Assembly: GCF_000719135.1 (NCBI RefSeq)
Contig: NZ_JOEK01000019.1
Span: forward strand, 62,001-126,000
DNA: 64,000 bases
Direction of reading: 5' to 3'
Source: Streptomyces avicenniae
GTDB taxonomy: Bacteria > Actinomycetota > Actinomycetes > Streptomycetales > Streptomycetaceae
A program made the position numbers and the translations under genes. Positions within the stretch are counted from its first letter, which is position 1. The number at the start of each line of letters is the position of its first letter. Shown piece by piece: positions 50,261-62,018 of this stretch. The notes beneath the pieces are model-generated. The model was not told where the DNA came from, did no database searches, and saw only the letters and a list, made by a program, of their open reading frames with translations.

Positions 50261-53200
50261 TCACGTCCTGCGGGTGACCGGCCGGGAGCGCGTCAGGCGG
50301 AGCGTGCGGATCTCGAAGGGCCGCAGCCGCAGGGCGACGGCGCCGGTCGGGGTGAGGGGTTCGGGGTCGGGCGCCGGGTTCTCCAGCAGGTCGCAGGTGT
50401 ACGCCTCCCCCAGCGCGAAGGACGTCCCGAGCGTGACGGACGCGGCGCCGCCGTGCGCCTCGTAGAGCCGCACCACGAGGTCGCCCGAGCGGTCGTCCGC
50501 CAGTTTCACGGCCTCCACGACCACCTGGTCGTCGTCCAGCGCGACCAGGGGTTCCGCCACGGCGCGGCCGGGCACGGCCCGCAGCGGGATGTTCAGGTCG
50601 TGCCCCCCGGCGAGCGCGGCGCCCAGGTCGGCACCGGCCTCCAGGGCGTACGTGAACCGGTGGCGGCCCGCGTCGGCGAGCGGGTCGGGGCTGTGCGGGG
50701 AGCGCAGCAGGCTGAGGCGTACGGTCGTCGTCGTGCCGCCGTCGGGCCGGGTGTCGCGGGCGACGTCGTGCCCGTAGGTGCTGTCGTTCAGCAGCGCCGC
50801 GCCCCAGCGGTGCTCGCCCACGTGGACCCAGCGGTGGTTCCACAGTTCGTGACGCGCCGCCTCCCAGCTGGTGTTGGTGTGCGTGGGGCGCCGTACGTGG
50901 CCGAACTGGATCTCCGCGCTCTCGTGTTCCGCGTGGACGTCCATCGGCCAGGCGGCCTTGAGCACGGTGTCGCGTTCCTGCCAGTCGATGTCGGTGCGCA
51001 CCGTCAGGCGCCTGCTGCCCGCGGCGAGTTCGAGGTGCTGGACGAGGAGTGAGTCGCCGAAGGCACGCTCGACGCGGACGGCGGCGACGTACGGCCCGGC
51101 GTCCGCGAGGGTGACGGACTTCGCGTCCGTGAGGTCCGTGACGGTGGCGCGGTAGGTGTGGTCGAGGTTCCAGGCGCTCCACTTGGTGGGCAGGTCGGGG
51201 TGGAGCTGGAGCAGGTTGCCCGCCGCGCCCGGGGCGATGACGTCGCGGTCGGCCGTCCGGTCGTACACCGAGCGCACGAGCCCGTCGCCGTCGATCCGCA
51301 CGCGCAGCAGGCCGTTGTCGAGGACGATGCCCCCGGCGGTGGTCCCGGCCTCCACGCCCAGGGGCGCGCCGCCCGTGGCGCCGCCGGCCGGTGCGGCCCC
51401 GGCCGCCGGTACGTCGGCGGGGACGGCGATCCGTCCGTCGGACAGCCGCTGCGCCCCGGCGGGCGCGGAGGTCCCGGCCGGGAGCAGGGCGACGCCTTCG
51501 CGGCGGAACGAGCCCGCGTTGAAGACGCTCAGCGCGCCGTCGCCCGGCGTGCCGGTGGTGAGGGCGGCCAGCGCGGTGGCGACGATCTCCTCAAGCTCCG
51601 CGTGGATCTCGCCGTAGGAGCGCTCCGCCTCCTGGTGCACCCAGGCGATCGACGTGCCGGGCAGGATGTCGTGGAACTGGAGGAGCAGGACGCGCTGCCA
51701 GAGCCGTTCGAGCCGTTCGTACGGGTACTCGGCGCCCGTGCCGAACGCCGCGGTGGCCGACCAGAGTTCGGCCTCACGCAGCAGCGCCTCACTGCGCCGG
51801 TTGCCGCGCTTGGTGCGGGCCTGGCTGGTGTACGTGCCCCGGTGGGTCTCCAGGTACAACTCGCCGCGCCACACGGGCGGGTCGGGGTACTCCTCGCGTG
51901 CGGCGGTGAAGAAGGCGTCGGGGGACTCGACGCTGACGCGGGGCGAGCCCTCCAGGTCGCGCAGCCGCCTGGCCCGTTCCAGCATCTCGGGGGTGGGCCC
52001 GCCGCCGCCGTCGCCGTGGCCGAAGGGGGCGAGCGAGCGGGTCGCGACGCCCTTGTCGGCGAAGTTGCTCTCGGCGTGGGCGAGTTCGGCGCCGGTGAGT
52101 TCGGCGTTGTAGCTGTCGATGGGCGGGAAGTGCGTGAACACGCGCGTTCCGTCGATGCCTTCCCACTGGAACGTGTGGTGGGGCAGGCGGTTGGTCTCGT
52201 TCCAGGACAGTTTCTGGGTGAGGAACCAGTTGGCGCCCGCCAGCTTGGCGAGCTGCGGGTAGGCGGCGGTGTAGCCGAAGGAGTCGGGCAGCCACACGCC
52301 GTCGGTCTCGACGCCGAGTTCGCGGGCGAAGAAGCGGCGGCCGTGGACGAGTTGGCGGGCCAGGGCCTCGCCGCCCGGCAGGTTGCCGTCCGCCTCGACC
52401 CACATGGAGCCGACCGGGGCCCAGGTGCCGTCGGCGACGGCCTGCTTGACGCGGGCGAAGATCTCGGGCCTCGCCTCCTTGATCCAGGCGTACTGCTGGG
52501 CGGAGGAGCAGGCGAAGACCAGCTCGGGGTACTCCCGGGCGAGGGTCGTCATGTTGGTGAAGGTGCGGGCGCACTTGCGGACGGTCTCGCGGATCGGCCA
52601 CAGCCAGGCGGAGTCGATGTGGGCGTGGCCGACGGCCGTGATCCGGTGGGCGGACGCGTGGGCGGGGCGGGACAGGACGTCGGCCAGGGCCGCGCGGGCG
52701 CGGTGCGCGGTGCCGGGGATGTCGCGGCCGTCGATGGACTCGACCGCGTCCTCCAGGGCGTGCCTGATCCCGTGGCGGCGGGGGCTGTCGGCGGGGAGCT
52801 GCCGCATCAGCTCGTCGAGGACGGTCATGTCGTGCAGCAGATGCCACACGTCCTCGTGGCGGACGGCGATCTCGGCGGTCCGCAGCCGGTACAGCGGGGT
52901 GTCCCCGGCGGTGGCGAGGTCGCCGAAGTGGGTGCCGATGCCCGCGCTGCCGATGATCGGCGGGTTGGCGGCCAGCTCGATCAGGAGGTCGATCGGGTCG
53001 CCGCCGGTGGCGTTCTCGGTGAGCAGGACGGTGCGGTGGTAGGGGTGGAGGCCCTGGAGGGGGGTGCCGTCCGCGAGGTGGACGAGCCCTTCCGCCTGGC
53101 CGCCCGGCCCCTTGGTGTAGTCGAAGTCGAGGTCGAAGACGCCTTCGACGCGGCGGCCCGCCCACGCGGCCGGGACGGTGGCGCGGGCGCGCAGCCAGGT

Positions 53201-53404
53201 CGTGGCCCAGGGTCGGCCCCAGGTGTCGCCGAGGGTGAACGGCTCGTAGGCGGCGGCCTGCGCCTCCGCCAGCGTGACGGGTTCGCCCGGCACGCGCCAG
53301 GCCGACAGGTCGAACGGGACGGGCGGGCCGTGGAGGGCGGGGGTGAGCCGGGTGCGCAGGAAGGTGGCGATGCGGTCTTCGGCGAGGTGGCGATGGTCGT
53401 GCAC
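50261..53404 (-). CDS. Alpha-mannosidase, glycoside hydrolase family 38
   Basis: A 1047-residue enzyme. The GH38 metal-site signature AVGHAHIDSAWLWPIRETV lies near residue 260 and the nucleophile motif WLPDSFGYTAAYPQ near 375 (Asp of PDSFG), followed by the helical domain ('ILPGTSIAWVHQEAERSYGE') and a long C-terminal beta region with 'FGHVRRPTHTNTSWEAARHE' and 'NHRWVHVGE'. It should hydrolyse alpha-mannosides inside the cell after import by the adjacent CUT1 system. There is no signal peptide. The GTG at 53404 has GGAGG upstream and is close behind the DUF2264 gene. Confidence 0.93.
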   Translation of the reverse strand: MHDHRHLAEDRIATFLRTRLTPALHGPPVPFDLSAWRVPGEPVTLAEAQAAAYEPFTLGDTWGRPWATTWLRARATVPAAWAGRRVEGVFDLDFDYTKGPGGQAEGLVHLADGTPLQGLHPYHRTVLLTENATGGDPIDLLIELAANPPIIGSAGIGTHFGDLATAGDTPLYRLRTAEIAVRHEDVWHLLHDMTVLDELMRQLPADSPRRHGIRHALEDAVESIDGRDIPGTAHRARAALADVLSRPAHASAHRITAVGHAHIDSAWLWPIRETVRKCARTFTNMTTLAREYPELVFACSSAQQYAWIKEARPEIFARVKQAVADGTWAPVGSMWVEADGNLPGGEALARQLVHGRRFFARELGVETDGVWLPDSFGYTAAYPQLAKLAGANWFLTQKLSWNETNRLPHHTFQWEGIDGTRVFTHFPPIDSYNAELTGAELAHAESNFADKGVATRSLAPFGHGDGGGGPTPEMLERARRLRDLEGSPRVSVESPDAFFTAAREEYPDPPVWRGELYLETHRGTYTSQARTKRGNRRSEALLREAELWSATAAFGTGAEYPYERLERLWQRVLLLQFHDILPGTSIAWVHQEAERSYGEIHAELEEIVATALAALTTGTPGDGALSVFNAGSFRREGVALLPAGTSAPAGAQRLSDGRIAVPADVPAAGAAPAGGATGGAPLGVEAGTTAGGIVLDNGLLRVRIDGDGLVRSVYDRTADRDVIAPGAAGNLLQLHPDLPTKWSAWNLDHTYRATVTDLTDAKSVTLADAGPYVAAVRVERAFGDSLLVQHLELAAGSRRLTVRTDIDWQERDTVLKAAWPMDVHAEHESAEIQFGHVRRPTHTNTSWEAARHELWNHRWVHVGEHRWGAALLNDSTYGHDVARDTRPDGGTTTTVRLSLLRSPHSPDPLADAGRHRFTYALEAGADLGAALAGGHDLNIPLRAVPGRAVAEPLVALDDDQVVVEAVKLADDRSGDLVVRLYEAHGGAASVTLGTSFALGEAYTCDLLENPAPDPEPLTPTGAVALRLRPFEIRTLRLTRSRPVTRRT

Positions 53405-53406
53405 GG

Positions 53407-55386
53407 TCAGCGTGCCTCCGTCGGGTGGGGTGCGGCGGGGAGGACGAGGGTGTCGTGGGTCCCGTCCGGCCAGGCGAGCGTGATGTCGCTCTCCGGTCCG
53501 CCGTCGGCCGCCGGGGTGACGGCGAGGGTGGGCAGGTGTGCCGCGTCGAGCGGCGCGCCGCCGAGGTGGACGGCGGCGGCGTGGACGACGCCGAGGCGTA
53601 CGGCGCCGGTGGTCGTGAGCTGGGGGACCGCGGAGCGCGGGCCGAGGGGGCTGGTGTTCTCGGACGGTGTCACGGCCGCCCGCCCGAGCCCGCGCAGGCC
53701 CGCCACGGTCGAGGTGAGGCCGCCCGTACCGGTGACGGCCGCGTGGGCGGGCGCGCCGGGGGCCTCGTCGCGGGCCGTGCCGCCGTCGTGGCCGGTGAGG
53801 GGCCAGCCGCCGAACCTGAGGGTCAGCGGCAGGTCGTGGTCGCCGGGGCCCGCCGGGTCGGCGCGCGCGAGCCGGATCTCGACGGGGCCGCGCAGCACGG
53901 AGGCGACGGTCAGCCACGGGCCGAGGCGGTGGTCGGTGTCGGGGCCGCCGAACGGGTCCCACTCCTCGTCGGCGGGCCAGTGCGCGCGGCTGCGGGAGAC
54001 GCCGGTGGTGACGGTGTGCCGGAGGCGTTCCAGCGGTCGGCGGTGGGCGGCGCGGCCGTCGGCGTCCACCAGCGTCACCGTGGAGTCGAGGGGCCCGCCG
54101 GCGGGGTCGGCGGGCATCTCGGGGGACGTGTGGGTGGAGTGGGCGAGGCGGGCGTAGACCGGGTCGTCGGAGACGAGGCGGGCCGGGTCGGCGTGGTCGC
54201 TGCCGTGGTTGACGACGCGCACGACGCCGTCCGCCGCCGTGCCGACCGCCGTCCAGCCGGGCGCGGTGAGGACCCGGGTGAAGTCGGCCTGTTCGACGGG
54301 AAGGGGCGCGTGGGGCGCGGTCCAGACGGGGTGGTCGGGGGGCAGCAGCAGCCCGGCGAAGCCCTTGGACGCCCAGTAGGGCGAGGCGGGGCCCGAGTAG
54401 ACCTGCGTGATGCGGGAGAACGCGTGGTGCCAGCCGAGGCTGAGCAGGCCGTCGCCGTCCACGGCGCCGTGGTCGAGGAAGTGGCCGAGCATGCCGTCCG
54501 TGATGCGGTGGGTGAGGCCGGGCTCCAGCGGTGTGGCGTCGAACAGGGCGCCGGTCCAGACGGGGGCGAGGGCGGCGAACCGGTAGGTGAGGGAGCGGCC
54601 CTGGATCAGCGGGGAGCCGTTGGCGCCGATCAGGTGGGCCTGGTCGGTGAGGAAGCGGCGCAGCCGGGCGCGGTAGCGGTCCAGGAGCCCGGGGGGCGCG
54701 TCGGGGCCCAGGATGCGGCAGAACCACAGCGGGTAGAAGTGCATGGCCCAGCCGTTGTAGTGGTCGTAGTTGCGGTGGGCACCGCCGCTGAGGCCGTCGG
54801 AGTACCAGCCGTCGCCGGTGTACCACCGGTCGGTCAGCTCGACGGTGCGTTCCAGGTCGGCGGGCGACCAGGAGCCGCCCGCGGTGCGGGCGAACGCCTC
54901 GGTGACGGCCTGGAACCAGATCCAGTTGTTGCCGGGCATCGCGTCGCCGACCATGTGGCCGAGCCAGGTGAGGACGTGCTCCTGGGTGCGGGGGGTGAGC
55001 CGGTCCCAGATCCAGGGGCGGGTCTCGTGCAGGGCGAGGGCGATGGACGCGGCCTCGACCTTTGCCTGGTTGCGTTCGTCGAAGCGCGGCCAGCGTTCGG
55101 GGCTGTCGGGGTCGGCGCCCGCGGCGAGGCCCTCGGCGTACCACTCGGCGAGGTGGTCGGGGTCGGCGCCGCCCGCGCCCGCGAGGCGGAACGCGGCCAG
55201 CAGGAACGTGCGGGCGAAGCCTTCGAGGCCGTCGCTCCAGCGGCCGTTGGCGCTGGCGGGTCCGGGGAGGTGGACGAGGGCGTGCCGCTGGGTGGCGTGC
55301 GCGCGGGGGGCGCGCAGCAGGGTGTCGGCCGTCCGCGTCCACCAGGCGTGGTCGCGGGGGGCCGGGGGGTCGGTGGGGCTGGTCAC
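53407..55386 (-). CDS. DUF2264 domain protein, probable glycan-processing enzyme
   Basis: A 659-residue soluble protein. The DUF2264 part (~20-370) shows 'GRWSDGLEGFARTFLLAAFR', 'MVGDAMPGNNWIWFQAVTEAF', 'DRWYTGDGWYSDGLSGGAHRNYDHYNGWA' region and 'PLIQGRSLTYRFAALAP', rich in aromatic and acidic residues like an alpha/alpha barrel of a polysaccharide lyase or hydrolase. The C-terminal ~250 residues are beta-rich. The activity is not established to my knowledge. It is coupled to the binding protein (GTGA) and 2 bases from the mannosidase, so it is likely to act on the same imported sugar. Confidence 0.8.
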   Translation of the reverse strand: MTSPTDPPAPRDHAWWTRTADTLLRAPRAHATQRHALVHLPGPASANGRWSDGLEGFARTFLLAAFRLAGAGGADPDHLAEWYAEGLAAGADPDSPERWPRFDERNQAKVEAASIALALHETRPWIWDRLTPRTQEHVLTWLGHMVGDAMPGNNWIWFQAVTEAFARTAGGSWSPADLERTVELTDRWYTGDGWYSDGLSGGAHRNYDHYNGWAMHFYPLWFCRILGPDAPPGLLDRYRARLRRFLTDQAHLIGANGSPLIQGRSLTYRFAALAPVWTGALFDATPLEPGLTHRITDGMLGHFLDHGAVDGDGLLSLGWHHAFSRITQVYSGPASPYWASKGFAGLLLPPDHPVWTAPHAPLPVEQADFTRVLTAPGWTAVGTAADGVVRVVNHGSDHADPARLVSDDPVYARLAHSTHTSPEMPADPAGGPLDSTVTLVDADGRAAHRRPLERLRHTVTTGVSRSRAHWPADEEWDPFGGPDTDHRLGPWLTVASVLRGPVEIRLARADPAGPGDHDLPLTLRFGGWPLTGHDGGTARDEAPGAPAHAAVTGTGGLTSTVAGLRGLGRAAVTPSENTSPLGPRSAVPQLTTTGAVRLGVVHAAAVHLGGAPLDAAHLPTLAVTPAADGGPESDITLAWPDGTHDTLVLPAAPHPTEAR

Positions 55387-57002
55387 TGGAAGCTCTCCCA
55401 GGATTCCTCGAACTCGGCGCGGATCTGGTCTCCGGCCTCGCGCCGCCAGTCGGCGATGACGCCGTCGAAGGAGGCGACGGAGGCCCGGCCGCGCATGACG
55501 GCCTTCACCTCGTCCAGCACGCGCAGTTCGAGCTGGTCGCCGCGCGAGACGGCGGTGTCGGAGTAGAGCCCTTCGGCCGGGTTGGGCGTCAGGACGTCCA
55601 CGGCGCGCTGGTGGAAGCTGTGCTGCCGTTGGACGACGTCGGGCCATTCGGGGAGGTAGAGGGCGCCGGGCGCGTCGGTGACGAAGAGGGTCGGCAGGGT
55701 GGTCTCGACGGCGCCGGTGTCGGTGAGGATGGGGTCGGTGCCCTCCAGTTCGTGGTCCACGCCGCGGACGCCGTACTTGCGCAGCAGGTAGGCGTCCGTG
55801 CCGAACGGGGCGGCGAGCGCGTCGAAGGCGCGCAGCAGTTGGCGTATCCGCGCGCGGGGTGCCTTCTTGAGGACGAGGGTGGCGAAGCTGGAGAGCCCGG
55901 CCCAGTGGGTGCCGGTGCCGCCGTCGTAGCCGGGGGCGATCATGCCGTCCACCTCGAAGGGGCCGTCGGCGGTGGCGGCGTAGTTCCGGTAGTAGTCGTT
56001 CCAGGCGACGTTGCCGTCGTAGTTGATGGCGATCTGGCCGCTGGCGAACCAGTCCTTGAAGCGGCCGATGACGTTGAAGCCGTCGGGGTGGATGACGCCC
56101 GCCTCGTTGAGGCGGCGCATGGACTCCAGGGCGAGGCCGACCGTCTCGTCCTCAAGCCACCACTGGAAACGGCCGTTCTCCTCGCGCCACTTGTTGGGGG
56201 CGCCGAGCATTTCGAGGACGAAGTAGAACGTCGTCAGCGGGTCGCCGACGGCGTAGCGGTGCTGGTCGCGGTCGGTGAGGCCGATGCACAGCTCCTCGAA
56301 CTCGGCGAAGTTGGCCGGCTGCGGGTTGAGCGACAGTTCGGCGACGCGGTCGGCGCGGTAGTACATGACGGACCCGGCGGCGGCGCGCGGCATGGGCAGG
56401 CCGTAGATGCCGCCGTTGTAGACGGTGGTGGCCCACGAACGGGTCGGTATGTTCGCCAGGTTGGGGTAGTCGCGGATGGCGCTGCCCGACAGGTGCTCGG
56501 TCAGGTCCTCGAAGAGCGCGTGGAACATGGCGGGGCGCTGCCCGGTCTGCGGCACGATCGCCATGGCGTCGGGCAGGTCGCCGCCCGCGACGACGACGGC
56601 GGTCTTGTTGGCGTAGTCGTTGACGGAGACGATCTCGAAGTCGAGGTCGGTGCCGAGGCTGTCGTTCAGGGCGCGCCAGTAGGTGTTGCGGTCGGGGGGC
56701 GGCGGCACCGGGTTGAAGATCAGCGTCATGACGGAGATGCCGTCGCCGCGCGCGGGCGGGCCGTCGGGGAAGGCGACGACCGGCTCGGCCGGGTAGTGGG
56801 CGTAGCCGCTCGGCACACCGGCCGCGGTGCCGGGCAGCGTGGTGGGGACGCCGTCGAACGGGATGTAGTCGGGCAGCTGCACGCGGGAGTTGAGGGAGGC
56901 GGGCGGCAGCTGCGGGCCGTCGCCGCAGCCCGCGAGGGCGAGTCCCGCGGTGAGGCCGAGGCCGCTGCCGAGGAGGGACCGGCGGGTCAGGCCGTGCCGC
57001 AT
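55383..57002 (-). CDS. ABC sugar-binding lipoprotein (LipO/LplA type)
   Basis: A 539-residue binding protein. The N-terminus has a Tat-like LTRRSLLGSG and lipobox LAGC (Cys26). The mature part shows 'YWRALNDSLGTDLDFEIVSVNDYANKTAVVVAGGDLPDAM' region, 'IYGLPMPRAAAGSVMYYRAD' and other LipO-type blocks. It is the receptor for the two permeases encoded upstream. It overlaps the DUF2264 gene by 4 bases. Confidence 0.92.
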   Translation of the reverse strand: MRHGLTRRSLLGSGLGLTAGLALAGCGDGPQLPPASLNSRVQLPDYIPFDGVPTTLPGTAAGVPSGYAHYPAEPVVAFPDGPPARGDGISVMTLIFNPVPPPPDRNTYWRALNDSLGTDLDFEIVSVNDYANKTAVVVAGGDLPDAMAIVPQTGQRPAMFHALFEDLTEHLSGSAIRDYPNLANIPTRSWATTVYNGGIYGLPMPRAAAGSVMYYRADRVAELSLNPQPANFAEFEELCIGLTDRDQHRYAVGDPLTTFYFVLEMLGAPNKWREENGRFQWWLEDETVGLALESMRRLNEAGVIHPDGFNVIGRFKDWFASGQIAINYDGNVAWNDYYRNYAATADGPFEVDGMIAPGYDGGTGTHWAGLSSFATLVLKKAPRARIRQLLRAFDALAAPFGTDAYLLRKYGVRGVDHELEGTDPILTDTGAVETTLPTLFVTDAPGALYLPEWPDVVQRQHSFHQRAVDVLTPNPAEGLYSDTAVSRGDQLELRVLDEVKAVMRGRASVASFDGVIADWRREAGDQIRAEFEESWESFQ

Positions 57003-57069: not shown

Positions 57070-57969
57070 TCATCCCTTGACCGCCCCGAGCATGACGCCC
57101 TTGTTCATGTGGCGTTGCAGGAAGGGGAAGATGAGCGCGACCGGGACGACGGACAGCACGAGGATCGCGGCCTGGAGCGCGTAGGAGGGCGGCAGCGCCG
57201 CGCCCGCGGCGGACGCCTCGCCCGCGCCGATCGTCGCGTTGTTGACGACGTAGGTGCGCAGGACCAGCTGCATGGGCCACTTGGCGGACTCGTTCATGTA
57301 GAGCATGGCCTGGAAGAAGGAGTTCCAGTACGAGACGGCGTAGAAGAGGCCGACGACCGCCAGGGACGCCTTGGACAGCGGTATCACCACGCGCCACAGG
57401 GTCTGGAGTTCCCCGGCGCCGTCGATGCGCGCGGAGTCGAGCAGTTCGCGCGGCACGCTCATGAAGAACGAGCGGAGCACGATCACGTTGAAGGCGTTGA
57501 TCATCATGGGCAGGATCAGCGCCCAGTAGCTGTTGATGAGCCCGAGTTCCTTGACCAGCAGGTAGCTGGGGATGACGCCGGGGACGAACAGCATGGAGAG
57601 GATCAGCAGCAGGAGGACGGGCCGGTGCCCGAACGAGCCGGGGCGGCTGAGGCCGTAGGCGAGGGAGGCGGTCGCGGCGAGGCTGAGGAGCGTGCCGACC
57701 AGGGTGACGCCCACGCTCACCGTCATCGCCCGCGACACCGTGCCGCCGTTCAGGATGGCGCGGTACGCGTCGAGCGACGGGTTGTCGGGCCACAGGACGT
57801 AGCCGCCGGTGGAGTTGACCTGCTGCGCGTCGGCGAGCGAGGTCGAGACGACGGATAGGAACGGGATGATCACCAGGAGGCAGCAGGCCAGCAGGACCAG
57901 GGACTTGAGGACGCGCCAGGCGGGCGGGGCGGGGGCGAGGCCCGGGACGGCGGATGTGGGACGGTTCAT
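57070..57969 (-). CDS. CUT1 sugar ABC permease (LplC type)
   Basis: A 299-residue membrane protein with six hydrophobic segments. The CUT1 EAA loop is 'VPRELLDSARIDGAGELQTLWRVVIPLSKAS', and the C-terminus 'FPFLQRHMNKGVMLGAVKG' is the LplC/YtcP pattern. It overlaps the other permease gene by 4 bases (ATGA). No ATPase gene is in the locus; in streptomycetes such importers usually share a distant MsiK-type ATPase (known). Confidence 0.94.
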   Translation of the reverse strand: MNRPTSAVPGLAPAPPAWRVLKSLVLLACCLLVIIPFLSVVSTSLADAQQVNSTGGYVLWPDNPSLDAYRAILNGGTVSRAMTVSVGVTLVGTLLSLAATASLAYGLSRPGSFGHRPVLLLLILSMLFVPGVIPSYLLVKELGLINSYWALILPMMINAFNVIVLRSFFMSVPRELLDSARIDGAGELQTLWRVVIPLSKASLAVVGLFYAVSYWNSFFQAMLYMNESAKWPMQLVLRTYVVNNATIGAGEASAAGAALPPSYALQAAILVLSVVPVALIFPFLQRHMNKGVMLGAVKG

Positions 57970-58937
57970 CGCTTCTTGTAGATCCCTTCCTCGCCCATCA
58001 GGTGGGCGATCTTGTTGGCTCCGAGGACGAGGGCGATGCCGACGATCCCCTTGACCAGCCCGACGGCGGCGCTCGCGCCCCACTGCCCGGCGACCAGGCC
58101 GTTGTTGTAGACGTAGGTGTCCAGCACGTCGCTGTCCTCGATGCCGATGGCCGTCTGCTGGAGGATGATCTGCTCGAACCCGACGCTCAGCGCGTCGCCG
58201 AGGCGCAGGATCAGCAGGAGCACGATCAGGCCGCGCAGCGCGGGCAGGGTGACGTGCCACGTCTGCCGCATGCGGCTCGCGCCGTCCATGGCGGACGCCT
58301 CGTACAGCTCGTTGTCCACGCGGGACAGGGCGGCGAGGAAGAGGATCATGCCCCAGCCCGCGTCCTTCCAGATGACCTGGGAGGTGAGGAGGGCCATGAA
58401 CAGGTCCGGGTTGCCGATGATGTTCCAGGTGCCCATGTCCCGGGCCTGGAGGAACACGTTCACCAGCCCCGAGTTGCCCAGCATCTGCTGGAAGATCGCG
58501 ACGACGACGACCCAGGACAGGAAGTGCGGCAGGTAGAGGATGTTCTGCACGACGCGCTTCACGCGTTCGCCGACCATCGTGTTCAGCAGCAGGGCGAGGG
58601 CGATCGGCACGGGGAAGACGAACACGACCTGGATCAGCGTGAGTTGCAGCGTGTTGGCCAGGGCCCGCAGGAACGCGTCGTCGCCGTTGAAGATGATGTC
58701 GAAGTTGTCGAAGCCGACCCACCGGCTGTCGGCGATGCCGATGAACGGCTGGTAGTCCTGGAACGCGATGACGTTGCCGAGCAGCGGGACGTAATGGAAC
58801 AGCAGGAGCACGGCCGTTCCCGGCAGGACGAACCAGAACAGCGCCATGTCACGCCGTGTGCGGGTGCGCCGTGCGCGTCCGGTGGCACCCGCCGGATCGG
58901 GGGCACGGCGCCTGGCCGGTCGTTCGATGGTGGTCAT
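57966..58937 (-). CDS. CUT1 sugar ABC permease (LplB type)
   Basis: A 323-residue membrane protein. An Arg/Ala-rich cytoplasmic N-terminus leads into 'MALFWFVLPGTAVLLLFHYVPLLGNVIAFQDY', typical of LplB, and the EAA loop is 'ELYEASAMDGASRMRQTWHVTLPAL'. The ATG at 58937 has AAGGGGA upstream. It is the first gene of the sugar operon and divergent from the transposase-ROK fusion gene, which probably represses it. Confidence 0.94.
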   Translation of the reverse strand: MTTIERPARRRAPDPAGATGRARRTRTRRDMALFWFVLPGTAVLLLFHYVPLLGNVIAFQDYQPFIGIADSRWVGFDNFDIIFNGDDAFLRALANTLQLTLIQVVFVFPVPIALALLLNTMVGERVKRVVQNILYLPHFLSWVVVVAIFQQMLGNSGLVNVFLQARDMGTWNIIGNPDLFMALLTSQVIWKDAGWGMILFLAALSRVDNELYEASAMDGASRMRQTWHVTLPALRGLIVLLLILRLGDALSVGFEQIILQQTAIGIEDSDVLDTYVYNNGLVAGQWGASAAVGLVKGIVGIALVLGANKIAHLMGEEGIYKKR

Positions 58938-58990
58938 GCCGTCCCCTTCGGTCCGCGGTGTCCGCGAGGTGGCCCCGTGCCACGCGCCGG

Positions 58991-59049
58991 TCATGTAAAT
59001 CCAATGGATTGACTCTCGTCAATGGTTCTGACTTCGGATATTTACATGA
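58991..59049. promoter_or_regulatory. Nested palindromes at the promoter of the sugar operon
   Basis: An outer inverted repeat TCATGTAAAT (58991-59000) / ATTTACATGA (59040-59049) encloses AATCC-n3-GGATT (58998-59010) and ATTGAC-n4-GTCAAT (59008-59023). On the minus strand, TTGACG with a 17-base spacer and TTTACA could be the permease promoter inside this block. This AT-rich cluster between two divergent genes is a strong operator candidate. Confidence 0.55.
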
Positions 59050-59067
59050 GGGCCAAGACCTGCCCGC

Positions 59068-59081
59068 TCAATAGGCATTGA
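59068..59081. promoter_or_regulatory. TCAAT inverted repeat
   Basis: TCAAT (59068-59072), AGGC, ATTGA (59077-59081): the same half-site as in the nested palindromes just upstream but in opposite orientation; possible secondary operator. Confidence 0.35.
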
Positions 59082-59143
59082 TCACCAGAAAACGACCAGC
59101 GGGTAAGTGACCGCGGCCAGCGATCCACACTCGGTGGCCAGTT

Positions 59144-59156
59144 AGTACTTTTGCGC
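59144..59156 (+). repeat. CTTTTGCGC motif before the fusion gene
   Basis: AGTACTTTTGCGC, 14 bases before the start codon, resembles AAGTCTTTTACGC at 61408-61420 and the inverted copy at 61525-61537 beyond the same gene. Confidence 0.4.
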
Positions 59157-59170
59157 GCGGCGGAAGAACG

Positions 59171-61390
59171 GTGTTGTATGTGGCCATGCATGACGTCCCG
59201 AAACTGGTCCTGACGCCCATCCAGCGCGAGGCGCTGCGCAGTTGGTCGCGCGAGCGGCCGGGCCGGGACGTCCGGGCCCGGATCGTCCTGGACGCGGCGG
59301 ACGGCGTCCCGGTCTCCGACAGCGCCCGCGCGCTCGGCGTGTCCCGGCCGACGGTCTCCTCCTGGCGCGCCCGGTACGCGGACCTGGGGCTCCCCGGCCT
59401 CGAACACCGCCCGCGCGCGGGCCGTCCGCCCCGTATCGACGAGGCCGAGGTCGTCGCCTCGACCCTGGCCGGGCCTCCCCCGCCGCGCCCCTCCTGGTCG
59501 GCACGCTCCCTCGCCGAACACCTGGGGATGTCGCACACGACGCTCGGCGCCGTCTGGCGCCGCTGGGGCGTGGACGGCGAGGGCGCCTCCCCCGTCACCC
59601 TGCCCACCTCACCCCCGCTGACCTGCCGGGAGCCGCTGCTGCTCGGCCTGTGGCAGCAGGCGGACTCGGCGGTGGTCCTGCTGGCCGAGGTGCCGCCGGG
59701 CCGTTCCGTCGCCGCGGCGGCGCCGTTCGTGCCCGCCCCGGCGGACGAACGGCAGGCGCTCGCCGCCACGCTCGCCGCCGCCCTCCCGGGCACGGGCACG
59801 GGCGCCGACGCCGACGCGGAAGCCGTCACCGACGGGGTCACCGAGGAGGGCGGCGCCGCGCTGTCCGGGCTGCTGGCCGCCGTGCGCGACGAGTACCGCG
59901 GCCTGGCGGTGCACGCGATCGCCCTCGGCGGCGCCGCCTCCGCCACGGCGCGCGGCGGTCAGCGCGCGGCGGGCCCGGAGACGTGGCACACGGCGGGCGA
60001 GTCCATGAGCTGGGCCGCGACGCTGGCCGTCGTCTGCCAGTTGCAGCTGCGCCACAGCCCGTCGTCGGCGGGGCCCGTCCACCACTCGCTGGTCGAGGCC
60101 CTGCACGCCCGCGCCGGTCGGGCGCTGGTGTGGCGGCGGCCCAGCGGCGGGGCCGTGACCGAGCCCCAGGCCCTCGCGCCCCGCGCGTTCGACCAGTTGG
60201 CGCTCGGCTCGTTCAACGAGAAGCTGGTCATCGAGTCGATCAGGGAGGCCGGTTCGCTCAGCCGCGTGGAGATCGCCCAGCGCACCGGGCTCACGCCGCA
60301 GGCGGTCTCCCGTATCACCCGCAACCTGCTGACCTCGTCGTTCCTCGTCGAGGACACCGTGCGGCCCGGCATCAAGGGCAAGCCGCGGGTGCCCCTGCGG
60401 CTGCGGGCGGACGCCGCCTGCGCCCTCGGCATCCACCTCGACCCGGAGATGATCACGCAGGTGGTGGTTGACCTGTGCGGCGGCGTGCGTGACCAGCGGG
60501 TCCTGCCGCTGCACGGGCGCACGGACCCGGCCTCCGTCATCGACAGCATGACGCGCCTCGCCCGCGAGGCCATCGCGTCGGGGGCGGTCTCCGACCCGCT
60601 GCTCGGCATCGGCGTGGCCGTGCCTGGCCCGCTGGACGCGGGCGCCGGAGTGCTCTGCGACCCGCCGCTGTTCGAGGGCTGGCGCGACGTGCCGCTGCGG
60701 GCCGCGCTCACCGAACGGCTCGGCGTGCCGGTCACCGTCGAGAAGGACGCCACGGCGGCGGCCATCGGCGAGCGCTGGATCGGCGCGACCGAGCGCTCCG
60801 GGGACTTCATCTACCTCTACCTGGGCACGGGCGCCGGGGCGGGCGCGTTCCTCAACGGCGACGTGTACCGGGGCCGCACCGGCAACGCGGGCGAGTTCGG
60901 CGAGCTGTGCGCCCTGTCGCTCGGGCTCGCCGACCCCGAGGCGGAGCAGCGGGTCAGGGTGCCGGAGTGCGCGCCCATGTCGGCCGCCCTGGGGAAGGCG
61001 GCGGCGGCCGGGCTGCGGCTGCCGGACGCGCCGGGACGGTACGAGCGGCTGTGCGCGGCGGCGGCCGAGGGCGACGAGCGGGCCGTGACCGCGATCCGGG
61101 AGGTCGCGAAGGTCCTGGCCAGGGGGGCGACGGGGATGATCGACCTGCTGGACACGACGCTGCTGATCGTGGGCGGGCCCGCCGTGCCGCCGTCCGTGGT
61201 GGACGTGTTCCTCACCGAGATGTCCGCCGCGGTCAACCGTTTCCCGCTGGCCCGCCGTCTGCGGCGCGTGCGCGTGGAGCACTCGGTCCTGAACGACTCG
61301 GCGGCTGCGGTCGGCGCGGCGTCGGGCGTCTTCCACTCCGCCTTCGCGCCGCGGCTGCGCACGCTGTCCCGCGCGGAGGCGGCCGTCTGA
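59171..61390 (+). CDS. ROK regulator fused to an inactivated IS630-type transposase
   Basis: A 739-residue protein of two parts. Residues ~10-325 follow an IS630-family transposase from end to end: HTH ('SDSARALGVSRPTVSSWRAR'), 'GLEHRPRAGRPPRIDEAEV', 'SWSARSLAEHLGMSHTTL', 'LLLGLWQQADSAVVLLAE', 'LAVHAIALGGAAS', 'WHTAGESMSWAAT' and 'RALVWRRP', matching GLYL-PP-ALVLCVDEK, DVHLILDNYATH, HFTPT-SSW and PFVWT in order. All three catalytic acids are lost (AE, GG, AAT). Residues ~335-739 are a complete ROK repressor: winged helix ('LSRVEIAQRTGLTPQAVSRI') and sugar-kinase fold ('GVAVPGPLDAG', 'EKDATAAAIGE', 'LGTGAGAGAFLNG'), without the ROK GH and zinc-Cys motifs. It probably represses the divergent sugar operon. 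The GTG start has GGAAG 4 bases before it; the ATG at 59186 is also possible. Confidence 0.85.
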   Translation: MLYVAMHDVPKLVLTPIQREALRSWSRERPGRDVRARIVLDAADGVPVSDSARALGVSRPTVSSWRARYADLGLPGLEHRPRAGRPPRIDEAEVVASTLAGPPPPRPSWSARSLAEHLGMSHTTLGAVWRRWGVDGEGASPVTLPTSPPLTCREPLLLGLWQQADSAVVLLAEVPPGRSVAAAAPFVPAPADERQALAATLAAALPGTGTGADADAEAVTDGVTEEGGAALSGLLAAVRDEYRGLAVHAIALGGAASATARGGQRAAGPETWHTAGESMSWAATLAVVCQLQLRHSPSSAGPVHHSLVEALHARAGRALVWRRPSGGAVTEPQALAPRAFDQLALGSFNEKLVIESIREAGSLSRVEIAQRTGLTPQAVSRITRNLLTSSFLVEDTVRPGIKGKPRVPLRLRADAACALGIHLDPEMITQVVVDLCGGVRDQRVLPLHGRTDPASVIDSMTRLAREAIASGAVSDPLLGIGVAVPGPLDAGAGVLCDPPLFEGWRDVPLRAALTERLGVPVTVEKDATAAAIGERWIGATERSGDFIYLYLGTGAGAGAFLNGDVYRGRTGNAGEFGELCALSLGLADPEAEQRVRVPECAPMSAALGKAAAAGLRLPDAPGRYERLCAAAAEGDERAVTAIREVAKVLARGATGMIDLLDTTLLIVGGPAVPPSVVDVFLTEMSAAVNRFPLARRLRRVRVEHSVLNDSAAAVGAASGVFHSAFAPRLRTLSRAEAAV

Positions 61391-61403
61391 CGGCGGCGCG
61401 GCA

Positions 61404-61540
61404 GGGAAAGTCTTTTACGCACCACCCGGCGCCCGCGCGGCCCCGGGCCGTCGTCGCTCCTGGTCAGCAACGAGCGTCGGGGCCGCGTACAGCCTGCCCC
61501 TGACGCCGAGCCACCGCCCGTCAAGCGCAAAAGACTTCCC
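61404..61540. repeat. 137-base nested inverted-repeat element
   Basis: GGGAAAGTCTTTTACGC (61404-61420) pairs with GCGCAAAAGACTTCCC (61525-61540) with one bulge and one mismatch. Inside, CGCGGCCCC (61436-61444) pairs with GGGGCCGCG (61479-61487), and CGCTC (61455-61459) with GAGCG (61472-61476). The whole gap between the fusion gene and the GNAT gene could fold into one long stem. It may be a MITE-like remnant, a structured RNA or a terminator. Confidence 0.5.
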
Positions 61541-61574
61541 GTCCACCGCGGACGAGGGCCTACCATGCGCCGTC

Positions 61575-62018
61575 GTGACCACTTACCGCGCGCACGACGA
61601 CGGCTACGAGATCGACACCGACCCCGCCCGCCTCGACCTCGCCAGGGTGCACGACTGGCTCTCGACGGACGCCTACTGGGCCCTGGGCCGCAGCCGGGAG
61701 ACGGTCGAGCGGGCGGCGCGCGCGTCCCTCAACTTCGGCGTGTACGCCCCGGACGGCGCGCAGGTCGCGTACGCGCGCGTCGTCACGGACCAGGTGACGT
61801 TCGCGTGGCTCTGCGACGTCTACGTCGCCCCCGCGCACCGCGGGAAGGGCCTCGGCGTCCGGCTGGCCGGGACGATCCGCGACCACCTGGCCCCGTACAA
61901 CCTGAAGCGGGTGATGCTCGCGACGTACGACGCGCACGCCGTCTACGAGAAGGTGGGCTTCGGCCCCCTGCCCGAGCCGGAGATACTGATGGCCCTGCGC
62001 CCCGCCGAGGGCACGTGA
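61575..62018 (+). CDS. GNAT-family N-acetyltransferase
   Basis: A 147-residue GNAT enzyme: 'WLCDVYVAPAHRGKGLGVRL' holds the acetyl-CoA loop (R-G-K-G-L-G), followed by 'RDHLAPYNLKRVMLATYDAHAVYEKVGF'. The substrate is unknown. The GTG start is 8 bases behind a TACCAT -10-like box, suggesting a leaderless transcript; the right arm of the repeat element overlaps its likely -35 region. Confidence 0.88.
   Translation: MTTYRAHDDGYEIDTDPARLDLARVHDWLSTDAYWALGRSRETVERAARASLNFGVYAPDGAQVAYARVVTDQVTFAWLCDVYVAPAHRGKGLGVRLAGTIRDHLAPYNLKRVMLATYDAHAVYEKVGFGPLPEPEILMALRPAEGT

Follow-up and report, generated by a model that had tools for sequence, protein, structure and literature searches.

ROK repressors such as Mlc, NagC and Lmo0178, all of which regulate sugar operons, combine a winged helix with a ROK sugar-binding domain. 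The same combination is found in a protein encoded in a 64,000-nucleotide stretch of the Streptomyces avicenniae genome (contig NZ_JOEK01000019.1, positions 62,001 to 126,000; hereinafter, the window, the positions of which are used below), but this protein additionally contains a transposase module that the known repressors lack. It shares with IS630/Tc1/mariner transposases the two-part N-terminal helix-turn-helix (HTH) and the order of motifs up to the PF.W block, whereas its catalytic triad is lost, a ROK domain is joined to it, and the second copy in the genome is merely 68% identical. Our overall reading, to which we assign a probability of roughly 0.7, is that this is a sugar-responsive repressor that arose when an IS630 transposase became attached ahead of a ROK regulator.

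Animals and plants are well known to have regulators derived from transposases; SETMAR and other animal regulators, in particular, are fusions of host proteins with transposases. Capture of Tc1/mariner HTH domains by F-box genes is described in PMC12062965. In SETMAR and in the F-box fusions, as in the window protein, a transposase DNA-binding domain is attached to a host protein, but these are animal systems with other partners. In bacteria, the TldR proteins are TnpB-derived repressors according to PMC13418256; here too, a transposon protein has become a bacterial repressor, but one that is RNA-guided and not a sugar-repressor fusion. In the bacterial regulator WhiA, an HTH is combined with a homing-endonuclease domain (PMC11701221), whereas the window protein contains a transposase instead. 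In the available portions of a review on mobile elements recruited by prokaryotes (PMC8987985), IS630 is not mentioned, and the passages on regulators concern Ner, antitoxins and ribbon-helix-helix proteins. In agreement with the original prediction, which knew of no regulator with such an architecture, our searches of open PubMed Central papers yielded no description of an IS630-ROK fusion, subscription papers being outside this coverage.

A ROK repressor joined to an IS630-type N-terminus

The fusion gene occupies a single uninterrupted open frame on the plus strand (59171-61390), with the following layout (residue numbers refer to the 739-aa version of the protein that begins at GTG 59171):

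59186..61390, plus strand: IS630-ROK fusion gene, 734 aa from ATG 59186 (739 aa if from GTG 59171)
59216..59566, plus strand: IS630-type two-part HTH module, residues 16-132 (Pfam, structure model, hhalign)
59576..60169, plus strand: degenerate IS630 catalytic region, residues about 136-333 (profile alignments, column counts)
60176..61387, plus strand: ROK repressor part, residues 336-739 (Pfam, structure matches; winged helix about 346-400)

Most likely, translation starts at ATG 59186 rather than at GTG 59171, because the database entry P0001 is 734 aa long and because the GTG overlaps a -10-like TTGTAT box, which is positioned like the -10 element of a leaderless ATG. In the structure model, the HTH module consists of a tri-helical unit (residues 16-72) and further helices (91-132), and Pfam places HTH_23/28/29/32 inside residues 33-129. 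The prediction that residues ~335-739 form a ROK regulator with its own winged helix is borne out by a second HTH (HTH_24, MarR_2) at about residues 351-388 and by the ROK domain PF00480 at residues 474-718 (E 1.2e-32). The winged helix precedes the ROK domain, structures of ROK repressors match from about residue 346, and the best Foldseek match of this part is 5f7q (E 3.8e-22). When the window protein was read by eye, CxCGxxGC, the ROK zinc motif, was not seen; a role as repressor does not hinge on this motif alone.

That the fusion is real and conserved is virtually certain. An artefactual join of two separate genes by a frameshift or sequencing error, a possibility that had been raised initially, is excluded because a second full-length copy (68% identity over 2-735) is present in the same genome and the identical join occurs in many other genomes. 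Homologues that keep both parts are found in Streptomyces, Actinacidiphila, Streptacidiphilus, Catenulispora, Actinospica and Nonomuraea, and the ROK domain is present in 25 of 26 homologues from one protein search and in 52 of 55 from another (P0026, which has no ROK domain, was left out of the homologue alignment). Among 295 genomes of the genus Streptomyces, 16 contain a match at E <= 1e-25, with both modules matched in 12 of these, in one case split over two contigs; these counts are lower bounds because six candidates per genome were scored. The locus sample comprises 80 of 94 loci, of which 56, together with L002, make up the 57 fused loci, and 24 carry unfused ROK genes. The HTH is in frame in 49 of the 57 fused loci (detected by motif, or by reading in L114 and L002); five loci are cut by a contig end (L091, L095, L099, L110, L139), the first HTH is not in frame in L072 and L073, and the frame is broken in L106. 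In L094 (12129-13334), an unfused ROK gene adjoins the fused one, beside GH38.

By sequence, the N-terminal part is most similar to IS630 transposases, in accord with the transposase identity originally proposed. The NCBIfam IS630 transposase model covers only residues 35-134, with a score below the model cutoff. When the HTH is included, the profile built from 46 N-termini can be aligned up to the PF.W block, over 316 columns, with that of 40 intact IS630 transposases (of 41; P0119 was left out) (hhalign Prob 99.9, E 4.5e-31; the reversed controls given below cover the comparisons without the HTH, not this alignment). With the HTH removed, the direct comparison of the middle region of the ROK fusions with IS630 fails with 25 sequences (Prob 0.15; reversed control 0.29) and gives a weak match with 70 sequences (Prob 4.3, E 0.0096; reversed 0.07). 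The link runs through a separate family of IS630-GntR/FCD fusions (80 of the best 120 of 339 matches contain GntR and/or FCD, and 40 contain a DDE domain; 30 of 77 GntR fusions were removed by a motif filter): the ROK-fusion middle matches the GntR-fusion middle (Prob 91.9, E 7e-7; reversed 0.48), and the GntR-fusion middle, in turn, matches IS630 (Prob 99.2, E 7.5e-20; reversed 0.15). In these profile comparisons, the middle region is firmly identified as an IS630 relic solely via the GntR fusions as the intermediate. For the N-terminal part, Foldseek returned nothing at E <= 0.001, and the Foldseek and VIA matches span the HTH alone; DDE_3 was not seen among the 25 of 29 Pfam matches listed for the window protein. 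The N-terminal model itself is of high confidence, with a mean predicted local distance difference test (pLDDT) score of 86.9.

The N-terminal part is almost certainly catalytically dead. Catalytic positions 2 and 3 correspond to Leu252 and Ala286 in the window protein and hold no acid in any of the 46 N-termini; the column after position 2 contains D in 5 of 15 members of the window's clade, and the register of the alignment beyond the HTH is possibly off by one column. All three catalytic acids had been reported as gone, which holds for positions 2 and 3 but not for position 1, which aligns with Glu173 of the window protein. At this position, 14 of the 15 members of its clade have E and the remaining one has D; all 31 members of the other clade have T, G or Q. 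Likewise, of the description as a complete transposase with order and spacing kept, the order of motifs to PF.W stands, but in the structure model a shortened, rebuilt stretch separates position 1 from position 2. Retention of recombination or DNA-cutting activity, for which the acid at position 1 could speak, is extremely improbable given the lack of acids at the other two positions and the rebuilt core, and no transposon-end-like inverted repeats flank the gene among the 25 of 44 inverted-repeat pairs listed for 58700-61800.

The second IS630-type family is represented also by L026 (G001:C590, minus strand), a 626-aa frame that joins a dead IS630 N-terminus to GntR/FCD, with the HTH, GntR and FCD confirmed; P0085 and P0086, of the 80 GntR/FCD proteins, lack IS630-type HTH models. 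L033 and L020 contain stand-alone IS630-like frames that, counted from the first Met, are 346 and 344 aa long and match HTH models but show no DDE match at E 0.01, and P0174 is a 1120-aa LuxR/MalT-like protein with IS630-type HTH models.

Selection on the HTH and descent of the fusions

Across 12 close pairs, omega ranges from 0.01 to 0.20 in the HTH, from 0.14 to 0.51 in the linker and from 0.04 to 0.21 in the ROK part, that is, the IS630 HTH is constrained as strongly as the ROK part, and it contains residues that are invariant across both fused clades. Such strong purifying selection on the HTH supports the proposed domestication of the transposase.

In the ROK tree (87 rows), clade A (19, including the window), clade B (38) and the unfused proteins (24) each form a single group, and the unfused group is the sister of clade B (support 97, quick method); a single fused clade is not rejected by the approximately unbiased test (p 0.167). 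In the HTH tree (68 rows, without those from 8 of 16 genome loci and L020), the N-termini of both fused clades group together (98/93), apart from the GntR fusions (74/91), the IS630 sample having come largely from the GntR-fusion search. The simplest reading is one capture event for the ROK fusions.

The alpha-mannoside operon and its predicted operator

The fusion gene is divergent from genes for two permeases, a binding protein, a DUF2264 protein and GH38, with the operator and promoter between them:

59017..59022, minus strand: -35 box TTGACG of the transporter promoter
58993..59014, minus strand: predicted operator (motif 1), ATGTAAATCCAATGGATTGACT on the plus and AGTCAATCCATTGGATTTACAT on the minus strand, ending in the -10-like TTTACAT
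57966..58937, minus strand: ATP-binding cassette (ABC) sugar permease; ATG 58937 is the likely start, ATG 58994 falling inside the operator
57070..57969, minus strand: second ABC sugar permease
55383..57002, minus strand: ABC solute-binding protein
53407..55386, minus strand: DUF2264 protein
50261..53404, minus strand: GH38 alpha-mannosidase

In tblastn searches with the window's GH38, the enzyme was found in 50 of the 57 fused loci vs none of the 24 unfused ones; of the seven fused loci without it, four comprise under 5 kb of DNA. Motif 1 is palindromic and is placed between the -35 and -10 boxes. With up to three mismatches, it occurs at three places in the 6,478,703-base genome (reversed control, 0), of which one is the window operator and the other two precede the second fusion gene and the GH38 gene next to it. 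Control of an alpha-mannoside operon, originally proposed from gene position, gains support from both the GH38 linkage and the confinement of the operator to these genes, and it is very likely that the fusion protein regulates the GH38 operon.

All 17 clade A loci contain motif 1 at >= 27 bits, including four that took no part in building the matrix (L060, L062, L063, L069), and TTGAC is found at constant spacing in 26 of 27 promoter-oriented clade A sites, the sites of L069 being left out of the 27. In clade B, a related operator, TTGATAACACnCnTGGTTTTACAT, lies behind TTGAC in 23 of 27 GH38 promoters. Weak operator-like matches are found, at a low threshold, in 15 of the 24 unfused loci (including L129 and L138); the presence of similar sites in unfused relatives suggests, therefore, that the ROK wing is probably the reader of motif 1. 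The same similarity would fit a structural or stabilising passenger role of the IS630 part, with the ROK winged helix doing all the DNA binding, as would L072 and L073, in which the operator and GH38 are retained although the first HTH is not in frame. Such a role appears unlikely given the constraint on the HTH, which equals that on the ROK part, compared with the range seen in the linker, and the residues in it that are invariant across both clades. The IS630 HTH is likely to bind DNA.

Under the repressor reading, an IS630-type transposase was attached ahead of a ROK regulator and lost catalysis, while selection continued to act on its paired-type HTH. Probably as a dimer, the ROK part would occupy the palindrome that separates -35 from -10 in the transporter/GH38 promoter and block RNA polymerase, until alpha-mannoside or a breakdown product releases the repressor. 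The IS630 HTH would provide a second DNA contact, raising specificity or bridging a distant site.

A second motif and a 42-bp inverted pair

A candidate for such a site is found next to the fusion gene:

59136..59155, minus strand: motif 2, CGCAAAAGTACTAACTGGCC, just upstream of the fusion gene, the -10-like TTGTAT of which is at 59174-59179

Of the 17 clade A loci, 14 have this 20-bp motif immediately ahead of the fusion start, and 12 of these 14 were used to build its matrix. Upstream of the operator, 18 of the 37 clade B loci contain TGTCAGGCGAATTA as an inverted pair, exactly 42 bp start to start, which is found in none of the 24 unfused or the 17 clade A loci; with a matrix derived from the 18, the clade B count rises to 21 of 37. 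The presence of the motifs is not independent evidence because the matrices derive from the same promoters and the loci are related. In 19 of 24 clade B promoters, the best match of the clade A matrix falls on either arm of the pair; shuffle p is <= 0.05 for 10 of the 24, vs 2 of 19 in the unfused control (combined p 0.32).

Binding of the second motif by the IS630 HTH can be proposed only tentatively, given that the motif also resembles the ROK site. Several observations weigh against it: the motif 1 matrix also scores the clade B arms (14.9 in L075, 15.6 in L078), motif 1 receives scores of 5.5-11.0 from the motif 2 matrix in 9 of 13 loci, and 20 of the 21 loci with the inverted pair contain an IclR gene. 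We consider it moderately probable that the second motif and the inverted pair serve as secondary sites for the ROK part or belong to a different regulator, such as the IclR-type protein whose gene lies upstream in clade B. The arms, however, are asymmetric, in contrast to the ROK palindrome; moreover, the IclR gene also occurs in five loci without the pair (L087, L088, L090, L092, L102), and the arms are not repeated at the IclR gene.

Speculative, and rather improbable, is an arrangement in which the dead transposase would bind the inverted TGTCAnnnnAnTTA pair (20-bp asymmetric arms, with 42 bp corresponding to four helical turns, upstream of clade B GH38) like two transposon ends, with the ROK dimer on the core promoter and the promoter looped between them. 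If true, synapsis would have been turned into gene regulation, and the window's clade would rely on one related motif, located ahead of the fusion gene itself.

Similar motifs appear elsewhere. An arm-like single site is located upstream of a gene weakly matching GH99 (L089:13966; E 0.0028, below the cutoff, from a search confined to L089), and similar single sites are found in L076, L082, L097, L100, L101, L104, L106 and L110. Behind the fusion gene of the window, there is a motif 2-like inverted pair (61391-61420 and 61525-61554; 30 nt, 73% complementary, 104 nt apart).

With the predicted operators given, the idea is open to direct test. In several actinobacterial families, a bacterial sugar repressor carries an acquired transposase HTH under purifying selection. 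Together, the ROK and GntR/FCD fusions suggest that actinobacteria recurrently build transcription factors by joining transposase DNA-binding domains to one-component regulators, and that gene regulators may be made from transposases in bacteria as they are in animals.
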